From Vitis vinifera (Eukaryota > Streptophyta > Magnoliopsida > Vitales > Vitaceae): DNA of 64,000 nt. Every line of letters begins with the position of its first letter. Position 1 is the stretch's first letter. Shown here piece after piece: positions 2,401 to 61,384 of the stretch. The stretch spans positions 9,665,001 to 9,729,000 of the forward strand of contig NC_081822.1 of NCBI RefSeq assembly GCF_030704535.1. Reading direction: 5' to 3'. The notes below the pieces were generated by a model, which was not told the DNA's origin, did no database searches, and saw only the letters and a program-made list of their open reading frames with translations. A program made the position numbers and the translations under genes.

Positions 2401-4045
2401 ATTTATATAAATTACAAAAAAAAAAAAAGAAAAAAAAAAGAAGAGAAATCTACATATAGCTGCATTTGTGTTTGTCATGGAAAATATATGAAAAATATTG
2501 CTAGAGTTTATAATGTAAAAGAAAATGCAAATGTGAAACGCAAAGCATATAAGCTATTTTAGGGTAAAATCCATGAATGACCAAATGGTCCAAAAAAAAG
2601 ATCAAATTGGAAATACGATCGGTCAACGGTTGAATCGATTGGTGCAAGCCAATTTTCAAAACCATGAAAATTTTAATATATGACTTAAGCATGTAAGTTT
2701 GAAATAACAATGAGTAAAAAATAAATTATAGAATCGCTTTAGATGAAAAAATATTTTAATAATTATAAATTTTTGTGAAATGGATATGATTTATTAAGAT
2801 AATTTAAAAAAGTAATAAATAAAATTTCATATTAATTTTTATTTAAAATATTTTATTTATAAGAATAAAATATCTTAAGATAATTATGAGGGTAGGTAGA
2901 AGATGCTATTTTTATGAGAAGCATAATATGATGTGTTTTGCATTAGAAAGTCAAACTCATCCACACAAATGTCCATGTCTATGAAACACATTCGACCGAA
3001 CATTATTTTCAAATTCGGACATTATTTTCAAACCCAACCTATATAAGGTATGTTTTTTTTTTTAAAATTATTAAATAGTAGTATTTTGGTTCAAAACTCA
3101 CGTGGGAAGAAGACTAGAGGGCGAACATTTTTGTTGCGAAGCTATACGGAATAAAATTTATTCAGAAGCCGGTCAAAACTCAAATTTATCTGCGGAACTT
3201 TTGTACTTATCTTTTGACAATTGGAATGCTTCCCTACAAATTAACTAAATTAATAGTCTCCTTGCTTTATCAGAAGCGAAGGAAAAAGTAGGACTCATGC
3301 ATCGTACAACACAAATAGACAGATCTTTAGTCATAGATGGTGCATGCCGTAAAGTAGCCGTCTTGAGCTTGGTAAGAAACCAAGCTATTAAAACTTGACT
3401 TGAACTGTTCATTCTCAAGGGGGTAAGTGCCAGCCAGGGTTCAAATTTTATGATGCGGGCATGCAAGACTTGTACCAATCCGCCGTTCTAAGAATAGAAT
3501 GTAGAAGACACCGAGCACCTCCTGCATGCATCTTGTGGCGGTGTGGACACGCATCCCAAGGCGAAGCTGTTCTCTACGACCTTAAGGATAAATTTAGTAA
3601 TTGTTTTAAAAAATAGTTTTTTGAGGCCAATTTTTTAAAATAAAAATCTGTTAAAAAACCTAAAATATAACATGTTTTTAACATTTTTAAATATATTTTA
3701 AAAATATTTTTTATATTTATTATTGTATTTTTAATTCTTGTATTTGTATAATTATTTTTTAAAATAATCATTAAAAAACAAATGAAAACAGATAAAAATT
3801 ATTTTTTTAAAATATTCTATTTTATGTTATTAATAACATATATACGAGGACTTTTAATAATCAAAAGTTTTTTTTTTATATTTTTTGTTTTGAAGAACAA
3901 AAAGCCTGCTAAAAAAAACAGTTGCCATAACTTTTTTCCGATCTGTAGTGATCCTAGGAAGGCTGTTTTCTAAATATAGTATTATAATAAAAAAAAATGT
4001 GGTCATAGTAAGAAAATAACGTTTGGACATGTCCCTGGTATTATG
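2401..4045. other. 5' flank of gene A1, no gene recognised
   Basis: AT-rich upstream region, repeated at 34189-35815. A patch at about 2600-2670 carries a GGTCAACGGTTGAATCG / CCAATTTTCAAAACC pattern resembling the end of the MITE-like element at 25229. A GC-richer block at 3110-3590 is well conserved in unit 2 but gives no recognisable protein in any frame. It could be promoter sequence or an old repeat. Confidence 0.5.
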
Positions 4046-4058
4046 CATATATATGTAT
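4046..4058 (+). promoter_or_regulatory. TATA-like box of gene A1
   Basis: A TATATAT run at 4048-4054 lies about 70 nt before the A1 start codon, a plausible distance for a TATA box with a short 5' leader. Unit 2 lacks 8 nt here and loses the run. No transcript data were available, so the promoter call is inference. Confidence 0.4.
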
Positions 4059-4122
4059 GCTTGAACAGGGAAGCTACCCACAGTTTAACCACAGTAATCC
4101 AATAGCGACAATCTAAGCTACC

Positions 4123-6591
4123 ATGGATTTCCTTCTCCAATGCCTAAACCCTGCCATGGTTGGAGCATTTGCAATACTTGTCCTCTCCTACTACCTGTTA
4201 TTATGGCGGTCTGGAGCTGGTAAGGGCAGAATGGCACCTGAAGCTGCTGGTGCATGGCCCATAATAGGTCACCTACACCTCCTAGGTGGGTCTAAGAATT
4301 TGCCCCACTTACTTTTGGGAACCATGGCCGACAAGTATGGAGCAGTATTCAGCGTTCGGCTGGGATTGAAAAGAGCTGTGGTGGTGAGTAGTTGGCAGAT
4401 GGCCAAGGAATGCTTCACCACCCATGACCTGGCTCTGGCCTCCCGTCCTCAACTTGTAATCTCCAAACAATTGGGATATAACGATGCCATGTTTGCTTTC
4501 TCTCCTCACGGTGCATACTGGCGGGAAGTGCGGAAGATAGCCACTCTAGAGCTCCTCTCGAACCGCCGGCTAGAGTTGCTGAAGAACGTCCGAATCTCAG
4601 AGGTGGAGACATGCATGAAGGAACTATACAAGCTTTGGGCCGAGAAGAAAAACGAGGCAGGCGTTGTTTTGGTGGACATGAAGCAATGGTTTGGGGACTT
4701 GACTCTGAACGTGATTCTTATGATGGTTGTTGGAAAACGATATTTCGGTTATACAGCCGAAAGTCAAGAGAAAGAGACCCAGCGGTGCCAGAAATCGATT
4801 AGGGAATTCTTTCGTTTGTTGGGTCTCTTTGTGGTGTCGGATGCCCTTCCTTTTCTTGGCTGGCTTGACGTGGGTGGACATCTGAAAGCCACGAAGAAGA
4901 CTGCAAAAGAAATGGATGGTATTGCTCAGGAATGGTTAGAGGAACACCGACGGCGAAAAGATTCGGGTGAAGCTAGTGGTAACCAGGACTTAATGGACGT
5001 GATGCTGTCCATTCTGGCTGGCACGGACCCTACCGGCTATGATGCCGACACAATCAACAAAGCCACATCCCTGGTATGCACATTATTCCTCGAGCACCTT
5101 TATATGCTACTAAAAAAAATGACATTCTTCTTAAGTCATAATTCATGCTTTATCCTCTTTAGTCGGGACTCTCAGACTCTCGAGAGTACTCACACCTTCG
5201 ATGGAATAACTTTCTGTTGCTGGTTGAAGCTAGTCAAAGTCAATACTTTTTAAAAGATAATATTAGATTTATAAAAGTTTTATCAATTATGAAAGAATTT
5301 TTTGCATCAGCGAAAATAGAATTTTTTTACTTAAAAATAAAACGTTTTTGATTTCATAATGTGTTTTATTATACGTTGTTATTTGTCAAAAGAGTAACAT
5401 GAGCAGCTTCGACAAGCAATTATAACGAAATACAACCCACCTGAGAATCTGAGCGTAACTAGAATTATGTCGAACCTCTGGCTTGGGTGTTTGGGCTGGG
5501 CAGGTAATAATCCAACTCTCCTCTGGGTGGCTGGGCCATTCTCGTCAGAAGATCATGAAAGTGTGTTCTTTATTCCTCATGGTTTGAGGCCTCATTGACT
5601 GGGCTTCTTGATCTTGAGTTGGTTACACAATTACGCCTTTCAAAGACTCTTCGTCATAATAAATACAGTGGCTTTCCCTTGTAAATTTAAGGATTTTTAT
5701 ATTTTATTTTTTATTTTAATTTTGAAGCCTAACATGAAGTTTTATAAAATGCTAAATTTGTGAGCGAGTTTCAAATTCAAGCTACTTTTGATCGACGGAC
5801 ACTAAACTCTATGTCTAGAATCAGACTCCTATCTGTTCGTGCCCCTTAGACATAAGGACACTCACTCTTGAAAAAATAAAAAAATAAATTGGAGCCTTTT
5901 TCCCCTTTAATCCTGTTAGTAGTTTTAATTTTATTAACATTAGTTAATGTTTTGTACTTGGCAGATTTTGATTGCAGGAGGCAGTGACACTACATCTGTT
6001 ACTCTAACATGGGTGATCTCACTTTTATTGAATAATCCATGTATGTTAAGAAAAGCCCAAGAAGAATTGGACACTCATGTTGGTAAAGGGAGACTGGTAA
6101 ATGAAGTGGATTTAAGCAAGTTGGTCTACCTCCAAGCAATTGTTAAAGAGACATTGAGGTTATATCCCGCACTTCCACTTTCAGGACCACGCCAATTTAA
6201 CCAAGATTCCATTTTAGGTGGTTATCGTATCCCAAATGGCACTCGTCTTGTATTGAACCTCACTAAGATCCAAAGAGACCCAAGTGTATGGTTGAATCCA
6301 ACAGAGTTTCAACCAGAGAGATTCCTCACTACTCACAAAGACGTTGATATGAGGGGCAAAAATTTTGAGTTTACACCATTTGGTGGTGGAAGAAGAATTT
6401 GCCCTGGTGCAACTTTTGCCCTTCAAGTGCTACACTTAACATTAGCCAATTTCCTACACAAATTTCAACTTTCGACTCCATCAAATGCAACAGTTGATAT
6501 GAGCGAGAGCCTTGGGATAACAAACATCAAATCCACTCCACTTGAAGTTCTCATCTCGCCACGTCTGTCTTCTTGTGATCTTTATGAGTAA
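4123..6591 (+). CDS. cytochrome P450, CYP82 family (gene A1), two exons
   Basis: Heme-thiolate monooxygenase expected to hydroxylate or oxidise a specialised metabolite at the ER membrane with NADPH-P450 reductase; the substrate cannot be read from sequence. Exon 1 is 4123-5073 (317 codons), the phase-0 intron 5074-5964 (CTG/GTATGC ... TTGGCAG/ATT), and exon 2 5965-6591 (208 codons plus TAA), giving 525 aa, normal for CYP82. Seen in order: membrane anchor at about 12-28, proline hinge (P39, P46), helix C W133xxxR137, I-helix AGGSDTT 321-327, ExxR E379-R382, PERF 434-437, heme loop [10 protein letters not shown] 456-465 with Cys463. No lesion is visible. The ATG at 4123 is followed at once by the anchor. 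Family members include homoterpene synthases, nicotine demethylase and coumarin or flavonoid hydroxylases, so function stays open. Its twin A2 differs at 11 residues. Confidence 0.93.
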
Positions 6592-6646
6592 AACCAATGA
6601 ATGTTGAGAGAGACTATTTCAAGAAACCTAGTATTATATTATAGGA

Positions 6647-6652
6647 AATAAA
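6647..6652 (+). terminator. poly(A) signal candidate of gene A1
   Basis: AATAAA about 55 nt after the A1 stop codon, with a second A-rich AATAAAA just downstream. It is conserved at the same place after A2. Based on motif and position only. Confidence 0.4.
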
Positions 6653-6985
6653 AATACAAATAAAATTTGTACATGTGGTACAAGTTTAAAATAATAACTA
6701 ATGAGTACGGTACTTTTTTAATTTTGTCTTAGCTTGAATTTTGGTGTTTTTTTTTTTGTTTTCTCCTTGTAGAAGAAAAAGTGGCATATAACATTTTTCT
6801 TCCTCTATAGATAGTGAAAAATAAGTATGCAATTGACCATATGCATACGTGTGCAATAGACTTAATGAGTTGCAAGTTGATAATTGGTTTGTCTTTTGGT
6901 AGATTTTAGTTGCCTTCTTGTACATCATTAAAGTAGAAGATAAAGACGAAAATTATAACTTCACCCATTCCCATTGTAGAACGTT

Positions 6986-7472
6986 GGGCTATCAGTTTGA
7001 TTTTCAACGTCAAAATCAAATTGAATCAATCCAATTAATTTTTATGCATTAAAAATCAATTTAATTGAATTTAAAGAAGAAAATGGTTGGTTCGGTTTGA
7101 CTCACAATAATTGATTCGTCGGTTTATTTTGTTTTAATTTGTTTTGGTTTGTTGTAACAATAAAAATCATTTTTTTTTGGTTAATTTGGACTAAAAAAAA
7201 AAAAACCATGATTAGATAAAAGCTATAAATGTGCATATGAAGTTGTATCGAATGTGAAAGCTTTTCATCAAATTAATAATATAACCAATACTCATATTAT
7301 TGATGTAAATATAGAACTTTTAGATAAGTTCAATTTGTTTTACTATTGATTTTTTAAATAGGTAACCAAATTGGTCTAATTCAATTTTATATTTTAAAAC
7401 CCAATATTATTAAAAGAAAAATTGCTAAAAATTAGTGGATTAGGGTTAGTTCATTGATTCTGTCTACACCCC
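6986..7472. mobile_element. MITE-like element, hAT-type ends (old)
   Basis: The sequence begins GGGCTATCAGTTTGATTTTC and ends GATTCTGTCTACACCCC. The ends and the interior (repeated GGTTCGGTTTGA and AATTGAAT patterns) resemble the common plant non-autonomous hAT family whose ends read AGGGTGTAC. A related element sits after gene D (29530-30089), so the insertion may predate the A-B / D-E duplication. No coding capacity. Confidence 0.4.
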
Positions 7473-7494
7473 AAAAAGAAGAGTGTCCACTTCG

Positions 7495-7622
7495 TATTGT
7501 CAACTTTGTGTGCTTATAAGTTACAATTTTGCACCATGAGATTCACATTTGTACTTATTATTGCCAATTTTGTGTGGTCATAAGTTATAATTTTACCCCA
7601 CTAGATTCACATTTGTTGGCAT
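7495..7622. repeat. 64-nt tandem repeat, two units
   Basis: Units start at 7495 and 7559. Both carry TATTG(T/C)CAA(C/T)TTTGTGTG, then ATAAGTTA(C/T)AATTTT, then GATTCACATTTG. The same repeat occurs in copy 2 of the block, and a three-unit version follows gene D. Confidence 0.7.
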
Positions 7623-7905
7623 CATAATTGACTTTCTACATCCATGCATTCATGAATCATTACAATTCAATACTGTATTACCATTTTGGCGCTAAACAAG
7701 AAGACTCGTCTTTAAAGTACTCAAGCAAATCCTCACAAATTTTAATCATTTTTCAATTTAGATGAATGGGAGCAACAACACTAGAACAATGAAGTAGATG
7801 ATGAAATAAAATAAAAAACAAAGATAGTATACAAACTCTAATTTTATTGGTTTGTCATAGTCTTGACTTATATGCACTCTCCTCAAACTTTAAAATTCTG
7901 CTAAC

Positions 7906-10208
7906 TTGTTAGAGGTTGTTCGTGCTTCCTTGATAGCAGCAAAAACACCGATATCTTATTGGGGAGGAGCAATCACATCTGCCGTATACTTGATCAATCG
8001 GGTACCTTCCAGCTCAATTAACTTCCAAACACCTCTCCAAGCTCTTATTAATGTCGTAGTTGGCCCAACTATCCCAAATCTACCTTCTCGTGTTTTTGGT
8101 TGTGTGGCATTTGTGCATCTACACAAACACCAACGCACCAAGTTAACTTCTCATGCATTACAATGTGTGTTTGTTGGATATGCATTGCACAAAAAGGGAT
8201 ATCGATGTTACTATCCTCCAACTCGACAAATGTATATTACAATGGATGTGGTGTTTCATGAAGATTCGATGTATTTTTCATCTGAGTTTGAACTTCAGGG
8301 GGAGTACCATAAGGAAATTCAGACTCTCGATTATGATTATCATATCTCTGAGGAGAATGAATCTGGACAATCTGAACTAGTGAACCAAGAAGCGGGTGAG
8401 TTGGATATGAGTGGTCAACAATTTAGGTCTGAAGATGTCTTCACTGAAATACCAAACCAATCGTCGTCTGTTGAAGGTGTTCTTAATTTGGAACCCGATC
8501 CATTCATGAAACGGTTACCACACCGTCATAATAGAGGTATCTTAAACCCACATATGAACCTGAATTGTCTACCAAACTCAAATATCCCATGAGCAACTAT
8601 GTGTCTAACCATCGTTTGTCTGAATCAAATAAGTCATTTGTAAATCAATTATCTACTGTAGCTATTCCTAACAGTGTGCAGGAAGCCTTAGCTGATCCAA
8701 GGTGGAAAGCAGTTATGAATGAAGAGATGAAATCATTGCAGAAGAATGAAACATGGGAACTCGTAGAATGTCCACCAGGAAAGAAGCAAGTTGGGTGTCG
8801 TTGGATCTATACTGTAAAGTACAAGGCAGATGGTAGTATTGAACGATTTAAAGCAAGACTGGTAGCAAAAGGGTACACTCAAACTTATGGAATTGACTAC
8901 ACAGAGACATTTGCACCTGTAGCTAAGATCAACACAGTTCGAGTATTACTGTCTTTAGCTGCAAACCTAGATTGGCCGTTACAACAGTTCGATGTGAAAA
9001 ATGCTTTTTTGCATGGTGAGTTATCTGAAGAAGTATATATGGATCTTCCACCAGGATGCATGGTGTCAGAAAAACAATGTTAGAAGGTGTGCAAATTGAA
9101 GAAGTCATTGTATGGGTTGAAGCAATCCCCGAGAGCATGGTTTGGAAGGTTCACAAAGTCAATGAGAGCTTTTAGCTATCATCAAAGTAATTCAGATCAC
9201 ACTTTGTTCCTGAAAAAGCAACATGGTAAGATTACCGCACTCATCGTATATGTGGATGACATGGTAGTTACAGGAAATGATCCTGAAGAAAGAAAAGCTC
9301 TGCAAAATTATCTATCTAGAGAATTCGAAATGAAAGATCTAGGTTATCTGAAATACTTTCTTGGGATTGAAGTTTCTCGATCAAGTGAAGAAATTTTTCT
9401 TTCTCAAAGAAAGTATGCCTTAGATCTTTTACAGGAGACTGGAATGTCGGGATGTCAACCTGTTAATACACCAATAGAAGAAGGTCTGAAATTGTGTGTT
9501 GAGTCTAATCAAGTATCAACTGATAAGAGAAGATATCAGAGACTTGTGGGGAGATTAATGTACTTAGCTCATACAAGACCAGATCTTGCTTATGCATTGA
9601 GTGTAGTGAGTCAATACATGCATAATCTTGGAGAGCAACATATGAATGCAGTTATGCGTATTTTGAGGTATTTGAAAAATGCTCATGGGAAGGGAATTTT
9701 GTTCGCTAAAAATGTTAATCATCAGAGTATAGAAGTATATACTGATGCTGATTGGGCCGGTGCAATGGATGATAGGCGATCTACATCTGGTTACTTTACC
9801 TTTGTAGGTGGTAATCTTGTGACATGGAAAAGTAAGAAGCAGAATGTCATCGCTCGTTCAAGTGCAGAAGCAGAATTTAGATGTATGACTCTAGGACTTT
9901 GTGAGACATTATGGCTAAGACTTCTCTTACAGGATTTAGGTTACCTATCTAGGCAACCAATCCGATTGTTTTGTGACAATAAAGCCGCATGTGATATTGC
10001 TCATAATCCAGTACAACATGATCGTACAAAGCATGTCGAGGTGGATAGATTCTTCATTAAGGAAAAGTTGGATGATAAGATTGTGGAATTGACTAAGATT
10101 CGATCAGAAGATCAATTGGCCGATATCCTCACCAAAGCTGTCTCATGTCAAGTGTTCTCAAAATTTTTAGACAAGTTGGGCATGTGTGACATATATACAC
10201 CAACTTGA
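7906..10208 (+). pseudogene. broken Copia polyprotein (integrase C-term, RT, RNase H)
   Basis: Three pieces are visible. The stretch 7906-8592 matches the C-terminal third of Copia integrase (LINR, then a FGCVAFVH segment) plus the variable linker. A frame change near 8565-8592 leads into the RT N-terminal half ([26 protein letters not shown]). An in-frame TAG at 9081-9083 interrupts RT. The frame then continues through KSLYGLKQSPRAW, the catalytic YVDD, and RNase H motifs DADWAG and DNKAA to the stop at 10206-10208. One frameshift, one stop and no integrase core mean it cannot transpose by itself. Confidence 0.88.
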
Positions 10209-10496
10209 GGGGGAGTGTTGAGATATTAGGAATGCTTTCCGTATATCATTCTTTCCTTATATTATTTAGTGTTGAGATATTAGGAATGTTTAAATATTAG
10301 GAAAGTTGAGATATTAAGAATATTGAGATATTAGGAATATTGAGATATTAGGAAAGTTGAGAAATTAGGATATTAGTTGTTATTTCCTTATATCATTCCT
10401 TCCCATTCTTAGAATGGTGATTACCCTCTATATATACTTTATATATGAACGAATGAAAGTATGAATGGAAAAAACTACCATTTATCAATTTGAAGA
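7908..10496 (+). mobile_element. 5'-truncated Ty1/Copia retrotransposon with 3' LTR
   Basis: About 2.6 kb holding the end of integrase, reverse transcriptase, RNase H, a polypurine tract (10205-10215) and a 3' LTR. The 5' LTR, gag, protease and most of integrase are missing; host sequence joins directly to mid-integrase at 7907/7908. The integrase-RT-RNase H order is diagnostic of Copia. It is absent from unit 2, so it was gained in unit 1, or lost from unit 2, after the segmental duplication. Confidence 0.88.
10216..10487 (+). repeat. Copia 3' LTR with internal short repeats
   Basis: Begins TGTTGAGATATTAGG immediately after the polypurine tract TTGAGGGGGAG and probably ends at CA 10486-10487. 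The first half contains about six near-copies of TTGAGATATTAGGAA. A TATATATA stretch lies near 10430-10446. With no 5' LTR present, its age cannot be dated by LTR comparison. Confidence 0.7.
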
Positions 10497-11728
10497 GGTA
10501 CAAGTTTAAAATAATAACTAATGAGTACGGTACTTTTTTAATTTTGTCTTAGCTTGAATTTTGGTGTTTTTTTTTTGTTTTCTCCTTGTAGAAGAAAAAG
10601 TGGCATATAACATTTTTCTTCCGGTATAGATAGTGAAAAATAAGTATGCACTTGACCATATGCATACATGTGCAATAGACTTAATGAGTTGCAAGTTGAT
10701 AATTGGTCTGTCTTTTTGGTAGACTTTAGTTGCCTTCTTGTACATCATTAAAGTAGAAGATAAAGACGAAAATTATAACTTCACCCATTCCATTGTAGAA
10801 CGTTGGGCTCTTAGTTTGATTTTCAACGTCAAAATCAAATTGAATCAATCCAATTAATTTTTATGCATTAAAAATCAATTTAATTGAATTTAAAGAAGAA
10901 AATGGTTGGTTCGGTTTGACTCACAATAATTGATTAGTCGGTTTATTTTGTTTCAATTTGTTTTGGTTTGATGTAACAATAAAAATCATTTTTTTTTTTT
11001 GTTAATTTGGACTAAAAAAAAAAAAACCATGATTAGATAAAAGCTATAAATGTGCATATGAAGTTGTATCGAATATGAAAGCTTTTCATCAAATTAATAA
11101 TATAACCAATACTCATATTATTGATGTAAATATATAACTTTTAGATAAGTTCAATTTGTTTTACTATTGATTTTTTAAATAGGTAACCGAATTGGTCTAA
11201 TTCAATTTTATATTTTAAAACCCAATATTATTAAAAGAAAAATTGCTAAAAATTAGTGGATTAGGGTTAGTTCATTGATTCTGTCTACACCCCAAAAAGA
11301 AGAGTGTCCACTTCGTATTGTCAACTTTGTGTGCTTATAAGTTACAATTTTGCACCATGAGATTCACATTTGTACTTATTATTGCCAATTTTGTGTGGTC
11401 ATAAGTTATAATTTTACCCCACTAGATTCACATTTGCTGGCATCATAATTGACTTTCTACATCCATGCATTCATGAATCATTACATTTCAATACTGTATT
11501 ACCATTTTGGCGCTAAACAAGAAGACTCGTCTTTAAAGTACTCAAGCAAATCCTCACCAATTTTAATCATTTTTCAATTTAGATGAATGGGAGCAACAAC
11601 ACTAGAACAATGAAGTAGATGATGAAATAAAATAAAAAACAAAGATAGTATACAAACTCTAATTTTATTGGTTTGTCATAGTCTTGACTTATATGCACTC
11701 TCCTCAAACTTTAAAATTCTGCTAACTT
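10497..11728. repeat. 1.23-kb gene A downstream block, copy 2
   Basis: Second copy of 6677-7907, including the MITE-like element (10805-11293) and the 64-nt repeats. It continues without a break into the spacer before pseudogene B, as the single copy in unit 2 does. This copy therefore keeps the original right-hand context and copy 1 the original left-hand context. Confidence 0.85.
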
Positions 11729-12201
11729 CTAATCCTTCAAGCCAATCTTAAACTCTTACATTTTGATTCTTGATTCCAAAAGACCTTCTTACACTTGCCT
11801 CAATAGATTCTTTACTTTTGAATACACTACTCACAAGTTAACAATTGAACAAAATTGATCTCTCTAAATCTTAATTAGTACAAGTTTAAACTTGAGAAAA
11901 TACAAGAGGAAATTAGGATGTTTTGTCTTAGATAAGAGTTTATAAGTTAATCAAGAATTTTACATTGAAAACAAAGAGTTAAGATCAATTCAGTTAAGTG
12001 AGATTGTAGGATCTAATTAGTTTGAGATCTTAAGCGGTCCTGTTATAATCTTATTATTTTATTCCAAAATTGCCTAAGAGGGAATTAGTAATTTAGGACA
12101 ACAATTAATTCCCTCCCAAAGTTTATTGGTTTGAAACTAATACTTTATTATACCAGCATGTTTGAGTTGAAAACACAAAAATTGAAGCTAAGGCAAGTAC
12201 T
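11729..12201. other. spacer before pseudogene B1
   Basis: Non-coding. It shows diverged similarity to the spacer after gene D (about 30540-31080): the same order of a CTCTCCTCAA block, a TTGATTC block, an AACAATTGAACAA block and an ATTCCAAAATTG-like block. This supports an old duplication joining A-B with D-E. No promoter for B remains, because its first 80 or so codons are lost. Confidence 0.5.
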
Positions 12202-13506
12202 TTACAATTCGGATTGGGTTGCATCGAGCTTTGGTGGTAACTACTTGGCAGATGGCTAAAGAATGCTTGACCGTCAATGACCAGGTTTCATCCTCGCGTC
12301 CCGAACTTTTAGCCGCAAAACATTTGGGCTACAACTACGCCATGTTTGGTTTCTCTCCATACGGTTCTTACTGGCGTGAAGTGCGCAAGATAATCAGCCT
12401 AGAGCTACTCTCTAACCGCCGCCTAGAGCTGCTGAAGGACGTCTGTGCTTCAGAAGTGGTGACATCCATAAAAGAGCTATACAAGCTCTGGCAGAGAAAA
12501 AAAATGAATCGGGCCTTGTCTCGGTGGAGATGAAGCAGTGGTTTGGAGATTTGACTCTGAATGTAATTCTTAGGATGGTGGCAGGGAAGCGTTATTTCAG
12601 TGCTTCAGATGCAAGTGAAAATAAACAGGCGCAGAGGTGCCGGAGAGTGTTCAGGGAATTTTTTCATTTGGTAGGGCTCTTTGCGGTGGCAGACGCTATT
12701 CTTTTTCTTGGATGGCTCGACTGGGGGAGACATGAGAATACCCTAAAGAAGACAGCAATAGAAATGGACAGTATTGCTCAAGAATGGTTAGAGGAGCACC
12801 GTCGGAAAGACTCCGGTCACGATAATAGTACGCAAGACTTCATGGATGTGATGCTGTCAGTTCTTGATGGCAAAAATCTTGGTGATTGCGAAAGCCACAT
12901 GCTTGTGTGGACCCGCATTTTTCACGTGCGCCTCCACTCGATCGGTGAGACTCGCTTTTATTTGGTAAAGATGTTGTTTTTGGAAAAGTCAGAGTCGCCA
13001 CTTATTTTATTTTATTTTAAAGGGAAAATAAAACAAGAAATAAAACCCTAAAAAATGACTCCATAGTTTTTTGGAAAAGCATGTCTTTGAAAAACCCGAG
13101 TCTAGGTCAAAGGATCAGATTACTTATTGGGAAGGTACCTCCAGGAGATAGCACCTCTCTAAACCTTACAAAGGTCTCTACTGACTACGTTGAAGGAAAT
13201 GTGGCAATCAACTGATTAATTGAGGGTACCTAGGTAGGCGAAGGTGATCTCAAAACTAGCATGCTAAACAAGAAAAACCAATCATGCCCATAGAGGAAAG
13301 TTAGGATGCGTACCTGGACCACTTCTTAAGCACTATCATAAAACATCAATGGTTAGTTTAGATAATATATCACTCAGTATGTGTTTTATCATGAATGATC
13401 AAACAATGTAGCAAATATCAAGACATCCCAAGCATTCTCAAACATAGGTATAAATCATAATGACGATCATATTTACAAAATTTGGAAGGTAGGTGACAGG
13501 AGACGT

Positions 13507-13618
13507 ACCTGGATAGCATAGATAACTCGTAACGTGCTTTCACAAGACATGAGAGGTTAGATACCTGGAAAGCATAGATAACTCGTAACGTGCTTTCACA
13601 AGACATGAGAGGTTAGAT
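13507..13618. repeat. 56-nt tandem duplication, unit 1 only
   Basis: Units 13507-13562 and 13563-13618 are nearly identical and both start ACCTGGA(T/A)AGCATAG. Unit 2 has a single copy at about 41342-41397, so this arose after the segmental duplication. Confidence 0.85.
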
Positions 13619-16479: not shown

Positions 16480-16545
16480 GAAGTCCTCTCAACGGTGCGG
16501 TTGATTCAGAAATCGTCATCTCAATGGTGCGGCTGTACCCTCTCA
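16480..16545. repeat. GGTGCGGCTG-type short repeats inside the 5-kb element
   Basis: Repeated CTCTCAA(C/T)GGTGCGG(T/C)TG units spaced about 33-36 nt. Unit 2 has one additional unit (about 44356-44390). Further GGTGC(A/G)GCTG copies lie at 16660 and 16735. Confidence 0.6.
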
Positions 16546-49760: not shown

Positions 49761-50350
49761 TGCAGCATATTAATGCTTGACAGCTGACAGTTACCCTCGA
49801 TCGGAAAGACAAATCCCTCGACTGGGAAGGAAAGGCTACTGAAAAAGAGAGAGTGTTTTTTGCACCTCTCGGTCGGACATCAACAGGGAAGGGGGAACCG
49901 GTCGATCGGTACCCTAGTCAGTTGAGCCTGTTTGGACAGAACCTTGACCGGTTCACAATTTTTTACCCGAAAACCTTTTTTTTTTTTGGTCTTTTTGCTT
50001 CAAACACTTAGACAATGTCTTCAGATAAAATTATATACCAATTTTGAAACGTTTTGCCTAAGGTTCATTTCATAGATCTCGGATTTTGATGAAAATGTAA
50101 CTTTAAAGCATAAATCGAGTTTTTCAAAGATGCATGAAATAATATGTAAATCCTAAGTGCATCAATGCATTTATCTTACATATGTTTCCTATCATTAAAG
50201 GTCTTTCCAAAAGTCTTGATCTTGCATCCATTAGGTCATTTGATGAATTTCCAAATTAACACCTGAAATTTTTTATAATTTAAACCAATTAGTAACTTAA
50301 CTATGGTTTGTTATCATCAAAACATGATTAGGAGAACCCTTGGGCTAACA

Positions 50351-50779
50351 GAGACATTACGGTTATATCCACCAGGACCACTTGGAGGACTATGCCAATT
50401 TATTGAGGATTGCACCTTGGGTGGATACCATGTCTCTAAAGGCACCCGTTTAATAATGAACCTTTCGAAGATCCAAAAGGATCCAAGAATCTAGTTAGAT
50501 TCGATAGAATTCCAACCAGAGAGGTTTCTCATCAACCATAAGAATGTTGATCCTTAGGGAAAACATTTTGAATTTATACCATTTGGAGCTGGTCAAAGAG
50601 CATGTCCAGGAATAGCTTTTGCTCTTCAAATATTATATTTAACATTAGCTAGTTTCTTACATGCATTTGACTTTTCAACTCCATCAAATGAACAGGTTGA
50701 TATGCGAGAGAGCCTTGAACTTATAAATATGAAATCTATCCCACTTGAAGTTTTCATTTCTCAAATCTACCCCACTTGA
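50351..50779 (+). pseudogene. P450 exon 2 C-terminal fragment, unit 2 copy b
   Basis: ETLRLYPPGPLGGLCQFIED through FGAGQRACPG and IPLEVFIS, with an in-frame TAG after QKDPRI. It follows the LTR 3' piece at 49771-50350. The CPG of the heme loop is kept, unlike CLG in B2. Confidence 0.85.
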
Positions 50780-51781
50780 AATCCTCATTTCTCTACACTT
50801 ATCTTCTTGTAGTCTTTACAACTAAAGCATTGAAATGAAGAGGTCAAAGTTGACCTAGCTAATCTTGGTTTAAAGACATATGGAGTTAGGTTCAATCAAT
50901 CTATAATAAGATTTGGGATTTGTATTAAAAGTAGGTTGGACTAAGAATGATGTACAATAAACTAAAGTACTATCCATGCAAATAAAGTATAACATTATAT
51001 ATTATTTGGTTAGCCTTTTGGAATGTAACATCATAATTATTTCTTTGTTTTGTCTAATTTATCGCCATTTTTTCCCTTTCTCTTATTCCCTCATCTTCAT
51101 CAAAACAAATAATATGTAGTTTTTCTATTTTTAAAAATCAAATTCGATTCCCAATTATATAAGAATTTTACTATTACTTTATAATAAACTTTACTTTAGT
51201 CTTAATAACTTTGACCTGTAAATATGTTCTCCATCCTTAATTAAATATACGGATAATTTCATTCATTTTTTCTAAGATTGAAGTTAAATTTACCCATCCA
51301 TACTTAACTTGAAATTTTCTTAAATATCTATTTTTTTTCCTTTTTTTTACACATATATCTTTTAATTTAAAATAAAAAATATTTAATAAAATTTCAAAAT
51401 AATAGTTGTCAGATATATTTATGTGAAATTTTCGATGAGGTGGATGAAACTAAACTTTTCTTTAAATATAAAATCATAAAAATTTAATATATGCAAGCAT
51501 GATCCGGTCTAAATATGATATATAATTTGTGTCATTTCAAAAAATCATAGAAGATCCTTTTGGCAAAGTGGCCCCACCTTTGAGTTGTATTCTGTAATTG
51601 GTCACCACATATTATATAATTTCAACGATTATGGAGGATCATGTTGCCAATCATTATCAGAAGAAGTGCAGCTTCCTCTATAAAACTAATCATATTTAGC
51701 ACACGCAAACAAATTTGGAAGGATCTGAAAGTCAAGTCTACGGGCCACCCCTTTACGGCTTGTTCGAAAAAGCACAAATCG
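50780..51781. other. spacer, copy b of nested duplication, unit 2
   Basis: Full-length counterpart of 22909-23737, including the bases lost in unit 1. No gene. Confidence 0.6.
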
Positions 51782-52010
51782 ATGGTGGTGCCACTTGCCA
51801 GCAGTCTGTTTCAATATCTAAATGTTACCTCGGTGAGACTGCTTGACATACTTTTTGTCTCCTACTATCTCATGGAGATCCAGAGCTGGTAAGATAAGAA
51901 TAGCATCCGAAGCTGCTGGTGCATGGCCAATAACCGGTCACCTCCTCTTAGGTGGGTCACAACTTCCTGGGATTTTTTATAAAATTACGGTAGATTTAAA
52001 TTTAATTTTT
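51782..52010 (+). pseudogene. P450 N-terminal fragment C2, unit 2
   Basis: Counterpart of 23738-23965 with the same frameshift and end. The hinge reads AGAWPITGH here (I to T). Confidence 0.8.
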
Positions 52011-52026
52011 TTAAAATGCAGCATAT

Positions 52027-53220
52027 TAAAAAATATCTTTGAATAATAATAATAAAATGACAAATAATAAAAAGGAAAGAAAGTTGTCTTGTGGCTATAA
52101 GAAAGAATAATATAAAAGAGAGAGAAGAGGAGAGGCGGATAGAGAGAAGAGTAGCAGGAAAAAAAAAAAAGAGAACAGGGAGGTGCATGCTGCAAATCTT
52201 TGGGTGTTCGTATGACGAGCAAAACGAGTTATGTTTTGCGTGAAAATTAAGGTGAAAATTTTCTTTGACATGAGGAACATTCTTTCAAAGTTTGATTTTA
52301 ATTTCAATGATTGGATTTTTTGATTTGTGGTGAGGTAGTTTAATCCTATAACTTTTGTTTAATATTTTTTCTTAAAAAAATATTATGGATTTTATTACTG
52401 GGAGATAAATATGTGTTATTTGTGTTTTCTTTATGTTATTTGAAATATGATTATTGTTAGGGTGGATTATTATGATTTTTTTTTTTTTTTATGTTTGCAA
52501 TGATTTAATTGAAGAAAAATTATTGTGTTGATTGTTGGAAATTATTCAATATATTAAGAATAAATAAAATTTATATGATTATGGTTTAGACTATGTTTTG
52601 ATGATATATAAATTATTGTGATTTTTTTTGTGGTTATTTAATTGAAGAAAAATTGTTGTGATGTAATTGGAATTATTGATTATGTTTGGAGTAAATAAAA
52701 ATTATGTCCTATAAAATTATGGATGATAACATGTAAGTTTATTATATTTCATATATGGTTATATGAAAAAAAATGATGAAAGATTTTATGAAATGGAAAA
52801 AGGAAAAAAAAAGAAAAAAAAAATGATGATGAAAAGTAAAAGCCCGTAAAAGACGAATTAAGAAAGAAATGAGATTTCTAGTATGAAAACTACAAAAATT
52901 TATCTTATGAAAACTCTAAATGGGGAGTGTATTTGGTACAGATGCATATCATTAAGTGAAAACCCAAAAACAATAGTTTGTTACTTTACTGAATGTAAAC
53001 ATTTGCATCATGTTTTTATTTGGAAGAATGACATGTATTAATTACTTGAATGACGTCAATGGTATGTTTGGATATATTATTAGAGATTGAAATGATTTAT
53101 TTATTTTGTAAATTTAGAATTGTTTGATATGTTATTTATATAATTGAATAAGAAATGTGATAATTTTGATTAGTTTAATTTTATATGGTTGATTTTTTAT
53201 TTAATGACTATAATGCATTG
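52027..53220. other. intergenic region, unit 2
   Basis: Counterpart of 23966-25228 without the 61-nt duplication. GA-rich patch at about 52110-52180. No gene. Confidence 0.6.
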
Positions 53221-53908
53221 TTTTGAAAATTGGATCGGACCAACCGGTTCAATCGCCAACTGGTGATCTTTCCGGTTCCATCCTCTCCTTTAAACCGCTA
53301 GATGGTTGAACCGACCACAAACCACTATTGGCAGTTGGACCGATGAACCGCTTGGACCAGGTGGTTTTTCATGAACTGCATGGCTCAATTCCAGCCCAGT
53401 CTTCCCCCCATTTTTTCTTTCATCCAAATAGTCCAACCTTCCCCTCCTCTTTTTCATAGGGTCCAAGTGAAAGCCCAATAAGCCCAGCCTTACATCTTAA
53501 TGGTCTTTAGGCAAAACCTAAACCCATTTAAACCCCTCAATGGGTTGTACCTTTGAACCCATTAGTTACACAAATAGCTTGAATGAACTGTGTTTTACGC
53601 GCATATTCACATCCACATCCATGTGGGATTGCTGCTATTTTAAGTCTAAAGAAAAAGCAACGCCACTTAGCTACAACACAATTTGATGCAAGTCTAGAAA
53701 ATAAAAAAATCAGCATGTGTTTCAAAAAAGATTAATAATATTAAATAAAATAATATAATATTTTCTGAAATTATAAAATTAGTTAAAGTTAAATAATTAA
53801 ATTTTTACATATTCCATTTAATAAAGTTCAAAATATTAATATATTTATATTTATATTTTGATAATATCAAAGATAAAAAATAAATATTTTTAATTTTTTA
53901 ATTTATAT
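53221..53908. mobile_element. MITE-like element, right end deleted
   Basis: Left end TTTTGAAAATTGGATCGGAC is intact. A deletion of about 190 nt at 53908/53909 has removed the (TA)n and right inverted end present in unit 1 (to 26086). Confidence 0.5.
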
Positions 53909-54309
53909 AATATTATATTTTGACATATAATTGTTTTCTATTGACTTAAATTTTTTAATTCATTTGGGTGTAAAACACCTTACAAAACAATGTGAAAATG
54001 TTCACCCCTTTATTTTTATAAAATTTTTAGATACAAATATAGTTTATAAGGAACCATAAGAAAATCAAGAAGTGTTCCAAAAAGCCTTAACAAATAAAAG
54101 AAAAATAATAATAATAATTTTTAATTTATATTACCTTTTTGACATGTACTAATTTGAGTTATATGAATTTTTGTAACTTAAATTATATTTTGTTATTTTG
54201 TAAAATATTTTTGGAAATATTTTTTACTTAGATTTATGTAGATATTTGGGTTAATTTGGGATTAAATATTGATCTATTCACTGTCAAATTGGATAGGAAT
54301 AAACTTTAA
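53909..54309. other. 5' flank of gene D2
   Basis: Counterpart of 26087-26496, with a short private insertion (TTAATTTGGGA near 54252). No gene. Confidence 0.5.
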
Positions 54310-54325
54310 GGTCAACCCTTTGACC
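54310..54325 (+). promoter_or_regulatory. palindromic W-box pair upstream of gene D2
   Basis: GGTCAA-CCCT-TTGACC, identical to the site before D1 and 44 nt before the D2 ATG. Binding by WRKY factors is inference from the motif. Confidence 0.4.
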
Positions 54326-54369
54326 TGATATCACTAGTCGGATTCTGAGTTGCCTTGGGTGTGACTATA

Positions 54370-56901
54370 ATGGATTTTCTTCTCCAATGCCTAAACCCTG
54401 TCATGGTTGGAGCGTTTGCAATACTCGTCCTCTCATACCACCTGTTATTATGGAGGTCTGGAGCTGGTAAGAGCAGAATGGCACCTGAAGCTTCTGGTGC
54501 ATGGCCCATAATAGGCCACCTGCACCTGTTAGGTGGATCTAAGAATTTGCCTCACTTACTTTTTGGAACCATGGCCGACAAGTATGGACCAGTATTCAGC
54601 ATCCGGCTGGGATTAAAAAGAGCTGTGGTTGTGAGTAGTTGGGAAATGGCCAAAGAATGCTTCACCACCCATGACCTGGCTCTGGCCTCCCGTCCTGAGC
54701 TTGTGGCCGCCAAATATTTGGGATATAACTATGCCATGTTTGGTTTATCTCCTCACGGTGCATACTGGCGTGAAGTGCGTAAGATAGCCACTCTAGAGCT
54801 ACTCTCGAACCGCCGGCTAGAGTTGCTGAAGAATGTCCGAATCTCAGAGGTGGAGACATGCATGAAGGAACTATACGAGCTTTGGGCAAAGAAGAAAAGC
54901 GAAGCAGGCGTTGTTTTGGTGGACATGAAGCAATGGTTTGGGCACTTGTCTCTGAACGTGATTCTTAAGATGGTTGTTGGAAAACGATATTTCGGTTATG
55001 CAGCCGAAAGTAAAGAGAAAGAGGCCCAGCAGTTCCAGAAGGCGATTAGGGAATTCTTTCGTTTGATGGGACTCTTTGTGGTGTCGGATGCCATTCCTTT
55101 TCTTGGATGGCTTGACGTGGGTGGACATGTGAAAGCCATGAAGAAGACTGCAAAAGAATTGGACGGTATTACTCAGGAATGGTTAGAGGAACACCGACGG
55201 CGAAAAGATTCGGGTGAAGCTGATGGTGACCAGGACTTCATGGACGTGATGCTGTCCATTCTGGGTGGTAGAGACACTACTGATTATGATGCTGATACCA
55301 TCAACAAAGCTACATCCCTGGTATGCACATTATTCCTTTAGCATCTTTATATGGTAGTAAAAAATGAGACATAATTTCATGCTTTATCATCTTTAGTCCA
55401 GACTCAAGAGTACTTGGGCCTGGGTTGGAAGAACTTCTTATTTTTGCTTAGTTTCAAGTTGAAACTAATCAAAAGCAGCGATTTTTAAAAGGTAATTATA
55501 ATAGTGGTGTTATTAAAGGTCAAACATAAATAACTTTTTGCATAAATCAAAATAGAGTTTATATATATATATATATATAAAATATTTTTCTGATCTTCAT
55601 ATTAATTTTTCTAAGTCATAACTTTTTTGAACAAAATTAGTCAAACCATAGAACTCTTGAACTTACAGAAAAGGGCTTTCGATTTCTTAGAAATAGATAC
55701 ATGAAGAGTTTTGTTATATGTTTGTTTTTGTCAAAAGAGTAACATGAGCAGCTTAGACAAGCAATTAGAATGAAATACAACTGGGCTGAGAAGCTGAGTA
55801 GAACTAGAATTATGTACAACCTCTTGCTAGGATAATTGGGTTGGACTTGTAATGATAGAGTTCTCCGTTGGAGTTAGGTGGCCCAAAAAGATTGTGCTGT
55901 TTGAATAGCTGGTCCTCTAATTTAGGAAGAGGCAGCCGAATTTGCAACGCTGGGTGGCTGGGCCCATAGAAAATATTCTTGTCAGAAGATTGTGAAAGTA
56001 TGTTCCTTAGTCCGCAAGGTTTGAGGCCTCTTTGAGTGGGCTTCTAGAGTCGGTTAGACAATTGGGCCTTTCAAAGGATTTCCTAAATTTACAATTTTTT
56101 TAGCCCAACATGAATTTTTATAAAATGCTATATTTATACGTGAGTTTCATATTCAAGCTAAACATACCCATTTTGATTGGAAAAAAAGGGAAAGAACATG
56201 GGGCCTTTTTTCCACCCTTAATCTTATCACTACTTTTAATTTTATTTTATTAGTTAATGGTTTGTATTTCACAGGTTATGATTGGAGGAGGCGCTGACAC
56301 TACATCTGGTACTTTAACATGGGCAGTCTCACTTTTATTGAACAATCCACACATATTAAGAAAAGCTCAAGAAGAATTGGATGCTCATGTTGGTAAAGAA
56401 AGACTAGTAAATGAAATGGATATAAGCAAGTTGGTTTACCTTCAAGCAATTGTTAAAGAGACATTGAGGTTAAATCCAATAGCCCCACTTTCAGGACCGC
56501 GTCAATTCATCCAAGATTCTATTTTAGGTGGTTACCATATCTCAAAAGGCACTCGTCTTATATTGAACCTTACCAAGATTCAAAGAGACCCGAGAGTATG
56601 GTTGAACCCAATGGAGTTCCAACCAGATAGATTCCTCACCACCCACAAAGATGTTGATGTTAGAGGTAAACATTTTGAGTTGACACCATTTGGTGGTGGA
56701 AGAAGAATTTGCCCTGGAATAGTTTTTGCCCTTCAAGTGCTACACTTAACATTAGCCAACTTCCTGCATAGATTTCAACTTTCAACTCCATCAGATGCAC
56801 CGGTTGATATGAGCGAGGGTTTTGGATTAACAAACATCAAATCCACTCCACTTGAAGTTCTTATCTCCCCACGCTTAGCTTCTTATGATCTTTATGAGTA
56901 G
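54370..56901 (+). CDS. cytochrome P450, CYP82 family (gene D2), two exons
   Basis: Unit 2 twin of D1. Exon 1 is 54370-55320, the phase-0 intron 55321-56274 (GTATGC ... TTTCACAG), and exon 2 56275-56901 (stop TAG), giving 525 aa. Motifs are intact: anchor, hinge, W133xxxR137, I-helix GGGADTT, Exx[15 protein letters not shown]. It differs from D1 at 23 positions. These include Q110E, S122A, A125G and F126L in the B-C region (SRS1), I318V, L319M and T324A in the I-helix (SRS4), T386I after ExxR (SRS5), and A466I and I467V next to the heme Cys. It probably still makes an ER-bound monooxygenase, possibly with altered substrate preference. Position 54370 is the first in-frame ATG and gives [10 protein letters not shown], as in gene A. 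Confidence 0.93.
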
Positions 56902-56955
56902 AATTTGAGGTCGCTAAGAGACTTATTTCAAAAAACCTAGTACTATGAAATGTGA

Positions 56956-56961
56956 AATAAA
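56956..56961 (+). terminator. poly(A) signal candidate of gene D2
   Basis: AATAAA about 55 nt after the stop, as in D1. Confidence 0.4.
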
Positions 56962-57326
56962 AATAAATTTCATAGCATAAGTTTAGTATTATTTTAAAAT
57001 AGTTACTAATGTCTGTCCTTTAATATTGTCTTAGCTTGAATTTAATGAAAAATATTTTCGACACTTATTTTGTGTGGACAAGTAATGACCCAATTTCTTG
57101 TTATGTTTCTTCATTCTTCCATGAAAGAGAATTTAGAAGAAAAAGTGGCATATAGCATTACAATTGAAAAATTAATAAGCATGTACTCCATATGCATAGT
57201 AGACTTAATGAGTTTCCAAGTTGATTAATTGGTATCTCCTTTTGATAGATTTCAGCCACCTTTTTGTACATGATTAAAGTAGTAATGGAGACTAAAATTA
57301 CAACTCCCATTTCATTGTAAAAAGTT

Positions 57327-57895
57327 GGGATGTGCAAGGTGGGTCAGTTCAATTTTGGGCATTAAAATCAAATCGAATTGAACCCAAAAGAGGAAAATGA
57401 TTAGTTTGACTTGATTAACAATAATCTAAGTTGGTTTATTTTGCTTCTATTTATAACATCAATTTTTTTTTTTAATTTGAACGAAAATAATATTATTGAA
57501 GCAAGTCATCTTTGGACGGTTGAAATGATATTATTACAACTAATTTCAAATCATATTATTATAACTTAATGATGTGAATAGGTATTATTGTAACCCATGT
57601 CAATCATATCAAATAGTCCAAGTCATAGATAAAAGTTATAAAGGTGTGATTGGGAGTTCCATCCAATGTGAAAAATGTATACCCAATTAATGATGTAACC
57701 AATTGTTATACTGTATATTATTACTGTGTGTATAACTTTCAATTCAATTCAGTTTGGTTCATTAATTTTTTTAATAGGTAATTGAATTGGTATAACTTGG
57801 TTTTATATTTAAAAAACCAAATTTATTAAAAAATAAAATCTTAAAAAATTAATAGATTTGGGTCAATTTCATTGATTTTGCCAATTGTACACCCT
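57327..57895. mobile_element. MITE-like element with hAT-type ends after D2
   Basis: Counterpart of 29530-30089, with ends GGGATGTGCAAGG and TTGTACACCCT. No coding. Confidence 0.5.
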
Positions 57896-57914
57896 AAAAG
57901 AAGGGATGTCCACT

Positions 57915-58115
57915 TATCATCCATAAACTTTGTGTACTCCTAAGTTACAATTTTGCCCCATGTGATTCACATTTGTACTTATTATACTCAATTTTCCGTA
58001 CAAATGATTTATTATTTTGCAGAATTTTACTCCATGAGATTCACATTTGTACTTATTATTACCAACTTTGTCTGCTCTTAAGTTACAATTTCTCCTAATT
58101 AGATTCACATGCGTT
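57915..58115. repeat. about 65-nt tandem repeat, three units, after D2
   Basis: Counterpart of 30115-30310 with the same three-unit structure. Confidence 0.6.
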
Positions 58116-60426
58116 ACTGCCATAATTGACTTTCCACATTTATGCATGAATTATTATGTCAATAGATGCATTATCATTTTGTCAAGTTAATCTGACTTAG
58201 GTTAATCACCAAAGGCAAGGTGAATTAATTGACTCAATTTTAATAAATTTTAATTTAACTAAGTGCAAGTAATAATAATAAAACAGTTAAAAAATACATA
58301 ATTAAATAACTAAAAAGAAGAGATAACAGGTACAAACTCCGATTTATATTTTGCTCAATCCCATACTCTCCTCAAGCTCTCAAATGCAAATTGAGGGTTC
58401 CACTAGCTTTTAAGACTTCAATCAAATCTTAATCCTTTACACTTGGATTCTCAATTTCAATGATCTTTTTACACTTTAATTCAAGAAATTCCTCACTCTT
58501 GAACATACTCAAAGGTAACACTTGAACAACATTGATCTCACAAAATTTTATTTACAAATAATATAAATGAAAACTTAAATGGTTTTTCTTGGCTAGGATT
58601 TCTAAGTTAATAAGGATTTTTGCATTAAAAAGAAATAGTTAAAATCAATTGGGTTTTGTAAGATTTTGATATATATCTTAGTTTGCGAGTTTTTTGGGAT
58701 TCTATTATAATCTTATTGTTTTATCCTAAAATTGTCAAAAAAAGAAATCAGTAATTTAGTATGGCAATTTTACTCCAAAGATTATTGATTAAAAATTATT
58801 TTACTAATACCAACGTGTAAGAGTTAAAGGCATAAAATTGAAATTAAAGTAAGTTTATTATTTTGGATTTGGTTAAGTAATGACAAGATTAATAATTGAA
58901 ATTAATGTAAAAAGAAGTGTAAAAACTTTAAAAGTTTAAAATATCATTTCATTATTAATTAGTTTCCACTTGCCAACATAGACTTCTCATTCTATTCAAA
59001 CAAGTTTTTTGTACTTTTATATATATATATATATATATTTCATAAACTTAACAAAGGATACAAACAACAAAAGAAAAAAAAAATTGAGCTACTAAACCTC
59101 AATATAAATTTGGGGTGAATTATCAAGGTCTATTAAGGAGCATGGGGAAGTGTTGTATCACATATCGATGTGAAGAAGGTGTATATATATTTATAGTATA
59201 GGACCTAAGATGTGAACGTTTCTTTTAAAGTTAGGTAAACATTTCTTTCAAAATTAATGGAATCTCACTATGATTTATATACACATGCTTTCAGTGTCCA
59301 TAGAGGTTGAAATAATACGATGATTTTTAACTTATATCTTGCTTTTTATATGTGATTTAATATTGTTTTGGATTATTGATTATGACTCATGAATTATCAT
59401 GCATGGAACTAATCAAAATGATATAATTAAATTATATTAATGAATTTGAGATAGACATGACAATTATTAATTTAAAATATCTTATATGAACATAAAATTT
59501 TAAATATAGACTCATAATTTATATATATTAATATAATAAAGTTGAAAAACTACGTTTATCTCAAATTTATGCCTAGGGCCCAAATTTTGCTGAGAGCCAG
59601 CCGGATGTCATCACATGCAAGAAAGCTAGGAAACAAAGCTAAAGTTTGCTTCTTGTGTGGGAAGAGGTACTTCCGTGCTTGACTGAAAGAAAGGATTTTC
59701 TACAAGAAAAATTGTCCCCTTGTTTGTAAAGCCTCAAGTTGCGACAGCAATAACGACAAAAGTAGGCCAAAGAATTTGTCATTATTATGAGACTAGAGAG
59801 GTTTTACTGAGAAGTTTTCCGAGCGTGATATCAGCATTCGCTGTATCACAGTGATACAACAAATGGTTTGAACACAGTGATCTAGAACCCATTAGCTCAA
59901 ATTTCATTGATCTGAACACGATGATCCTCATCCGCAGACCATTTTAGGGAATGATTAATTCGAGCGATTTTTTAACTGCCTGTACGAAGAACTTTATCAA
60001 AATTGGATTCAGTGTATCTTAACCAATCTTGATCAGTATGCGACTGATGATTCTATTTGATAAAAGTAATGCGGTGGCCCAACTTTATCTTAATTTCTAT
60101 GTTGAAAGTAACCATATATTATTCTATAATTATAAATATATACTGTGGAATCAAGATAACTTTGATATGCTAAGGATCAAAAGAGGGCAGCCACTTTAGT
60201 AGTGGATTATACTAAATAAAGCTGATCGATTATTACATTGGAAAATAACATTGAACCTATCATGAAAGACAACCCTACTGGACCATGCCCCGAGTACTAA
60301 ATGCTGATAAAAAACAAGTACATGTTCCAAAGGAATTGAGTCCATATATACACATTAGTGCTCAAAGAGAAAAACTATATATCCACCGCTTAACTACAGT
60401 GATCCTTTGAGCAGAAGAAGCTAGCC
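58116..60426. other. spacer D2 to E2 and 5' flank of E2
   Basis: No gene. TATA-like boxes at 60345-60350 (TATATA) and 60376-60382 (TATATAT) lie 77 and 45 nt before the E2 ATG. The last 860 nt are nearly identical to the E1 flank. Confidence 0.55.
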
Positions 60427-61384
60427 ATGTATTTCCTTCTCCAATACCTAAACATCACCACGGTCGGAGTCTTTGCCACACTTTTCCTTTCCTACTGTCT
60501 ATTATTATGGAGGTCTAGAGCTGGTAACAAAAAAATAGCACCTGAAGCTGCTGCTGCATGGCCCATAATCGGTCACCTACACCTGTTAGCTGGTGGTTCT
60601 CATCAGCTTCCCCACATAACCTTGGGAAACATGGCCGACAAATATGGACCGGTCTTCACAATTCGGATTGGGTTGCATCGAGCTTTGGTGGTAAGTTCTT
60701 GGGAGATGGCTAAAGAATGCTCGACCGCCAATGACCAGGTTTCATCCTCGCGTCCCGAACTTTTAGCCTCAAAACATTTGGGCTACAACTACGCCATGTT
60801 TGGTTTCTCTCCATACGGTTCTTACTGGCGTGAAATGCGCAAGATAATCAGCCTAGAGCTACTCTCTAACAGCCGCTTAGAGCTGCTGAAGGACGTCCGA
60901 GCTTCAGAAGTGGTGACATCCATAAAAGAGCTATACAAGCTCTGGGCAGAGAAAAAAAATGAATCGGGCCTTGTCTCTGTGGAGATGAAGCAGTGGTTTG
61001 GAGACTTGACTCTGAACGTAATTCTTAGGATGGTGGCAGGGAAGCGTTATTTCAGTGCTTCAGATGCAAGTGAAAATAAACAGGCGCAGAGGTGCCGGAG
61101 AGTGTTCAGGGAATTCTTTCATTTGTCAGGGCTCTTTGCGGTGGCGGACGCTATTCCATTTCTTGGATGGCTCGACTGGGGGAGACATGAGAAAACCCTA
61201 AAGAAGACAGCAATAGAAATGGACAGTATTGCTCAAGAATGGTTAGAGGAGCACCGTCGGAGGAAAGACTCCGGTGATGATAATAGTACGCAAGACTTCA
61301 TGGATGTGATGCAGTCAGTTCTTGATGGCAAAAACCTTGGTGGTTACGACGCTGATACCATCAATAAAGCCACATGCATGCCTG
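60427..61384 (+). pseudogene. gene E2: CYP82 exon 1 with donor-site frameshift, exon 2 not found
   Basis: Exon 1 is open for about 318 codons: anchor (8-28), RSRAGNKKIAPEA hinge, WPIIGH, WREMR (helix C W and R kept), ending [10 protein letters not shown]. Before the donor the sequence is ACATGCATGCCTG/GTATGAG, where A and D have ACATCCCTG/GTATGC. An extra ATGC makes exon 1 end in phase 1, so a phase-0 exon 2 would be read out of frame. If unspliced, it ends at TAA 61396-61398. No exon 2 is visible before the window ends, and the intron is interrupted at 61843. Closest relative is B. Most likely a recent pseudogene. Confidence 0.75.

Follow-up and report, generated by a model that had tools for sequence, protein, structure and literature searches.

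A 64,000-nucleotide stretch of grapevine chromosome 18 (C18:9665001-9729000; hereafter the window) was found to contain two adjacent, collinear, same-strand copies of a cytochrome P450 (P450) gene block. Both copies include genic as well as intergenic DNA, as in a tandem segmental duplication. The duplication is real, ordinary and already published, in a 2018 study of grapevine P450s (PMC6023221). New here, in that they were not found in the accessible text of that publication, are an apparent transposon scar at the junction of the copies, a third copy whose part between genes D and F is equidistant from the other two, and signs of exchange between copies. The locus is likely to represent a multi-copy tandem segmental duplication in a CYP82 cluster, with later insertions of a long terminal repeat (LTR) retroelement and a hAT transposon and a subsequent deletion.

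Two collinear units and their P450 genes

The units, delimited by self-comparison of the window and block-wise alignment, and their P450 genes are as follows.

2401..32730, forward strand: unit 1 (detectable homology), with gene A, pseudogene B, fragments C, gene D and a stub of gene F (termed 'E')
34187..60559, forward strand: unit 2 (detectable homology), with A', B', C', D' and the first 133 bp of F
4123-5073 and 5965-6591, forward strand: gene A, 525 amino acids, intact, with GT-AG intron and haem motif
35884-36834 and 37716-38342, forward strand: gene A', intact, 514 of 525 residues identical to A
26557-27507 and 28458-29084, forward strand: gene D, 525 amino acids, intact
54370-55320 and 56275-56901, forward strand: gene D', intact, 502 of 525 residues identical to D
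12191..24289, forward strand: pseudogene B and fragments C, comprising an exon-1 piece, an inserted element (about 12904-18161) and a tandem exon-2 part with flank
40035..52337, forward strand: B' and C', structured as in unit 1
32598..32730, forward strand: stub of F exon 1 ('E' of unit 1), 133 bp, 44 codons, interrupted by an LTR element
60427..64000, continuing to about 83242 beyond the window, forward strand: gene F, a pseudogene, with exon 1 from 60427 to about 61380

Same-strand collinear blocks were obtained at 2401-6970/34187-38714, 10867-22992/38716-50863, 22989-24289/51034-52337, 24271-25938/52259-53929 and 26092-32730/53897-60559, with identities of 94.4-98.3% including gaps and E-values of 0. 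The two collinear same-strand units proposed by the first-pass annotation were thus borne out by self-comparison and alignment, and the near-equal net lengths claimed for them follow from the unit coordinates (30,330 - 3,820 = 26,510 versus 26,373 bases). In the block-wise alignment, which omits positions 6971-10866 of unit 1 (most of a structure termed P-Copia-P, see below) and 25939-26091 and counts 33 bases of unit 2 (53897-53929) in two blocks, the units differ at 596 of 26,010 aligned columns (2.29%; Kimura two-parameter distance (K2P) 0.0233), 390 of the mismatches being transitions, and by 77 insertions or deletions. Substitution rates of 2.5e-9 to 1.3e-8 per site per year were assumed; if these hold, the units split approximately 0.9 to 4.7 million years ago, well before domestication.

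Each of A, A', D and D' consists of two exons with 525 codons, zero internal stops, a GT-AG intron and a haem motif. All five exon translations tested (both exons of A and of D, exon 1 of F) matched PF00067. Moreover, haem-binding and ExxR motifs, the patterns of which are general background knowledge, were present together with an open frame and a GT-AG intron in six of six genes, namely A, A', D, D' and the two genes D3 and AD located beyond the window. Counts of matches given here and below refer to the matches listed: the best 60 of 315 for PDB, the best 40 of 425 candidates for the LTR start, the best 40 of 2,460 for a Copia fragment and the 40 scored of 202 candidates for the spacer between D and F. 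The PDB matches listed were other P450s only, and the four closest solved structures were other plant P450s, with ferruginol synthase in first place. The dN/dS ratio (nonsynonymous to synonymous substitution rates) was 0.79 for D/D' and 0.30 for A/A'; the difference is not significant (Fisher p = 0.098).

The doubling of intact genes from two to four claimed by the first-pass annotation applies within the window, where A, D, A' and D' are intact; beyond it, D3 and AD add at least two more. The annotated 'gene E', in turn, is no gene: it corresponds to the 133-bp stub in unit 1 and to a pseudogene in unit 2. The exon-1 piece of B is 95% like F, and in C an exon-2 part with its downstream flank is tandemly repeated with a period of about 2.25 kb in both units. 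Read jointly, B and C appear to be remnants of one F-type gene. The element inside B (about 12904-18161) is likewise common to both units, its counterpart at 40740 to about 46027 showing 1.5% divergence. Because the same arrangement stands in unit 2, the B/C structure predates the duplication, as shared insertions had been taken to indicate.

The window most likely represents the locus of CYP82 cluster 92, judging from position and gene order. This cluster was described by Ilc et al. 2018 (PMC6023221), in the accessible part of their text, as 22 CYP82 sequences at 9,625,486-9,912,876 of chromosome 18, including two blocks of about 30 kb and 'very high similarity', each with two genes and two pseudogenes, which were ascribed to a very recent proximal segmental duplication. 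Those blocks were described from a dot plot of the PN40024 assembly (PMC6023221). Chromosome and position agree with the window, as do the presence of two blocks and, within each, the order of the two complete genes and the two pseudogenes. The CYP82 label used here most likely applies on the strength of this agreement in position and content, not of sequence; the family rule given in the accessible text is at least 40% identity to named family members (PMC6023221). The LTR-hAT joint, the P-Copia-P structure, the third equidistant copy and the patchy divergence described below go without mention in the accessible text of that paper. The same source reports CYP76 cluster 190 on chromosome 8, another family and chromosome, likewise as a proximal segmental duplication of P450 gene blocks and intergenic DNA.

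Co-expression was reported there for CYP82D15 and CYP82D18 in ripe berries, and for CYP82D17 and CYP82D20v2 in downy-mildew-infected leaves (PMC6023221, accessible part). Because of these co-expressed pairs, copy number at this locus may matter for berry chemistry and defence if the window is cluster 92. In literature searches on grapevine CYP82 genes, none of the listings revealed an earlier description of the junction scar or of exchange between copies; for segmental duplication of CYP82 genes on PN40024 chromosome 18, Ilc et al. was the sole paper listed. A grapevine P450 inventory from 2020 (PMC7040366) reportedly provides a genome-wide list and mentions CYP82 and tandem duplication.

A probable transposon scar between the units

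Between the end of unit 1 and the start of unit 2, remnants of two mobile elements were identified.

32731..33323, forward strand: first 593 bp of an LTR, truncated, beginning TGTCACGACCC
33326..34186, forward strand: hAT transposon remnant (3' part) encoding Dimer_Tnp_hAT, truncated on the 5' side, 3' terminus reached

The LTR lies directly 3' of the F stub, and its start at 32731 is shared with all 39 other places listed, in which the match ends at query base 592 or 593. Since the two LTR copies that were followed (one pair on chromosome 4 among the 39) stay alike for at least 1.2 kb past the 593-bp point, the LTR at the junction is cut. The hAT piece is cut on its 5' side only, because all 11 fetched copies carry nearly identical 60 bases upstream and all 11 end within two bases of the same terminus; among the other main hAT matches listed, 29 of 39 reach query base 1454-1456. 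The two pieces are joined with two extra bases between them, and homology of unit 2 begins at 34187, the first base past the hAT end. At 2401, unit 1 reads as an empty hAT site (ATTTATAT as compared with ATTTTTAT at 34187). Furthermore, a paralogous flank at window coordinates 98953-99125 aligns across 2401 at 78%, which argues for an uninterrupted flank of unit 1. For this left-flank comparison, default scoring was kept, and all rows from relaxed scoring, many of them AT-rich and of low identity, were discarded.

Both visible unit edges are hence termini of mobile elements, and the original duplication junction is not recognisable, its place being occupied by the truncated LTR and hAT pieces. 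Because the unit edges meet at two truncated elements, a deletion has probably removed that junction. The 26.5 kb given by the first-pass annotation for the duplication is probably the remnant length of a longer unit, as the visible limits resemble transposon scars rather than duplication breakpoints. Visible ends of segmental duplications in general may be transposon deletion scars, which would affect breakpoint-based claims on mechanism and unit size.

The main alternative is that the duplication breakpoint coincides with the LTR-hAT joint: a chromatid with the LTR in F exon 1 would have been fused by its end to one with the hAT element upstream of A, so that the tandem formed in one step. 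In favour of this, the joint falls exactly on the boundary between the units, each element extends to its outer end but is truncated on the inner side, and two bases fill the joint. The hAT element is missing from unit 1 at 2401, and the LTR is missing from the corresponding site in F of unit 2, so that each insertion would have to have been absent from the other partner; a one-step origin at the joint is accordingly considered unlikely.

Under the favoured and simplest account, a duplication followed by two insertions and one deletion, unequal exchange between repeated P450 sequences would have created the block copies, each resulting unit comprising two intact genes (A and D) and a broken F-type gene (B and C). 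As to the order of later events, we infer that, once the block had been duplicated, the F copy between the units received an LTR retroelement in its exon 1, and the region upstream of A' received a hAT transposon. One deletion, with its ends inside the LTR and the hAT element and closed with two extra bases, would then have removed the original junction. Exchange between copies may subsequently have homogenised some parts more than others. The consequences would most likely concern gene dosage and paralogue divergence of specialised-metabolism P450s.

Further copies and signs of exchange within the array

Within the 244 kb read around and including the window, which are devoid of N, the array extends past the window with B''/C''-like fragments (83523-87139), D3 (87601-89844) and F2 (93332 to about 95621), followed by another F-type remnant, AD (103433-105991) and additional P450 genes, either F-type or more distant, among them at least one broken gene (F3). 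The intact A/D-type genes D3 and AD, at least two in number, are located within 42 kb past the window. F and F2 are 98.2% identical over 1,418 bp.

For the D-F spacer, three full-length copies at about 95% were present among the genome-wide matches found, all in tandem on chromosome 18. From the D intron to the start of F, K2P values were 0.034 between units 1 and 2 and 0.032 both between units 1 and 3 and between units 2 and 3. A third partial copy downstream is thus about as close to each unit as the units are to each other in the D-F part. It is equidistant only there, because in the 5' part and exon 1 of D the units are separated by a K2P of 0.016 versus 0.041 between either unit and unit 3; in its C-like part, unit 3 resembles units 1 and 2 at only about 83-87%. 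The third copy led to the rejection of a single-copy ancestor that left exactly two descendants, and the simple one-to-two history put forward by the first-pass annotation is contradicted by the three roughly equidistant spacer copies among the matches found.

The third copy also bears on the question of whether the two units are allelic haplotypes placed consecutively by the assembler. A divergence of 2.3% would not be impossible between grape haplotypes, and PN40024 is not fully homozygous (about 93%; PMC6023221, accessible part), which weakens an argument against allelism. Such an assembly error nevertheless appears very unlikely, as two blocks with separately named genes were already described from an earlier PN40024 assembly (PMC6023221), no N interrupts the 244 kb, and in the D-F part the distance of the third copy to either unit roughly equals that between the two units. 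In addition, if the assembly is PN_T2T, the nine heterozygous hotspots given in the accessible part of its description are located on chromosomes 1, 2, 3, 4, 7, 10, 11 and 16, not 18.

Divergence between units 1 and 2 is patchy, with 0 to 32 mismatches per 500 bp. The variance between 500-bp bins was 53, as compared with a mean of 11 and a maximum of 24 in 2,000 permutations, and the longest identical run (655 bp; 15846-16500/43668-44322), located in the element inserted in B, exceeds all 2,000 random placements (maximum 617). This patchiness suggests exchange between copies. Gene AD shows a corresponding contrast: its synonymous divergence (dS) from D rises from 0.023 for exon 1 to 0.187 for exon 2. 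When A serves as outgroup and only sites at which D and D' agree are counted, exon 1 contains ten sites shared by D and AD and seven shared by D and D3, and exon 2 contains four shared by D and AD, 20 by D and D3 and one by D3 and AD. AD and the patchiness together suggest exchange between paralogues; uneven mutation and selection acting on exons may also shape the pattern.

Local mutation rate and selection without any exchange would be a doubtful but by no means negligible explanation of the uneven divergence. Exon 1 of A is conserved and its intron is not (7 of 951 versus 39 of 878 positions differing from A'), as selection would give, and the permutation test assumes even rates, so that it does not separate exchange from rate variation. 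The identical run in inserted sequence and the bin variance, both beyond the random maxima, and the proximity of AD to D in exon 1 but not in exon 2 speak against this explanation.

Several points weigh against duplication, insertion, deletion and exchange as reconstructed here. Unequal crossing-over itself is a presumed step, because the original junction no longer exists. Ten of the 39 hAT matches listed stop short, so that the terminus rests on the 29 others and the 11 copies read. The patchy divergence could also have arisen from uneven mutation or selection. Finally, the locus is equated with cluster 92 by chromosome number, coordinates, gene content and block structure and not by sequence, and the paper counts two pseudogenes per block versus one broken gene here.

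In a broader and tentative reading, to which slightly less than even weight is given, the block would be a stage in the concerted evolution of an array. Segments would be exchanged among at least three copies, giving rise to chimeric P450s such as AD, with its D-like exon 1 and old exon 2, and deletions between transposons would erase duplication junctions, so that published 'unit' lengths would be remnants.

Insertions in unit 1 and in gene F

The difference in gross length between the units originates from one structure downstream of gene A.

6677..11728, forward strand: P-Copia-P, a 2.59-kb Copia fragment (7908-10496) between the two copies of a 1.23-kb direct repeat (6677-7907 and 10497-11728)

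The repeats (P1 and P2) are 98.1% identical and represent the 3' flank of gene A; the structure adds 3.82 kb to unit 1. The enclosed fragment encodes Pfam retroviral SH3-like and RVT_2 domains and occurs at 94-97% in 39 other places of the genome among the matches listed. An interpretation of the 1.23-kb repeats as LTRs was rejected, as they consist of A 3' flank and are alignable with the corresponding flank of D. Of 30 two-state sites, 14 group P1 with P2, nine group P2 with unit 2 and seven group P1 with unit 2, in each case against the remaining sequence. With the D flanks as outgroup, the 14 sites comprise seven changes in unit 2, three in P1 and P2 and four ambiguous cases. Because of this site pattern, P-Copia-P is interpreted as a local duplication with captured filler that occurred after the unit split, and it is probably private to unit 1, with modest support; alternatively, it may be an older structure lost from unit 2. 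Of the earlier claim of a tandem segmental duplication with later private indels, the duplication and the indels are supported, and for P-Copia-P privacy to unit 1 is only probable. A deletion of 76 bp in the 3' flank of A' is specific to unit 2.

Compared with F2, gene F has a 4-bp insertion at the end of exon 1. Its exon 2 contains a stop, and its intron is interrupted by a 20.5-kb insertion that spans 61845-64000 and continues to window coordinate 82357. The ends of this insertion are 2.29 kb each, mutually inverted and 99.2% identical; they enclose Gypsy-like coding frames on the minus strand, as read by eye, and AAGTG flanks the insertion at both sides as a 5-bp target duplication. Inverted ends in combination with a 5-bp target duplication would be unusual for an LTR element. 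The site without the 20.5-kb insertion is seen in F2, B and B'. The start of the element inserted in B resembles the ends of the F insertion (TGTGTGGACCC; 72% over 0.3 kb).

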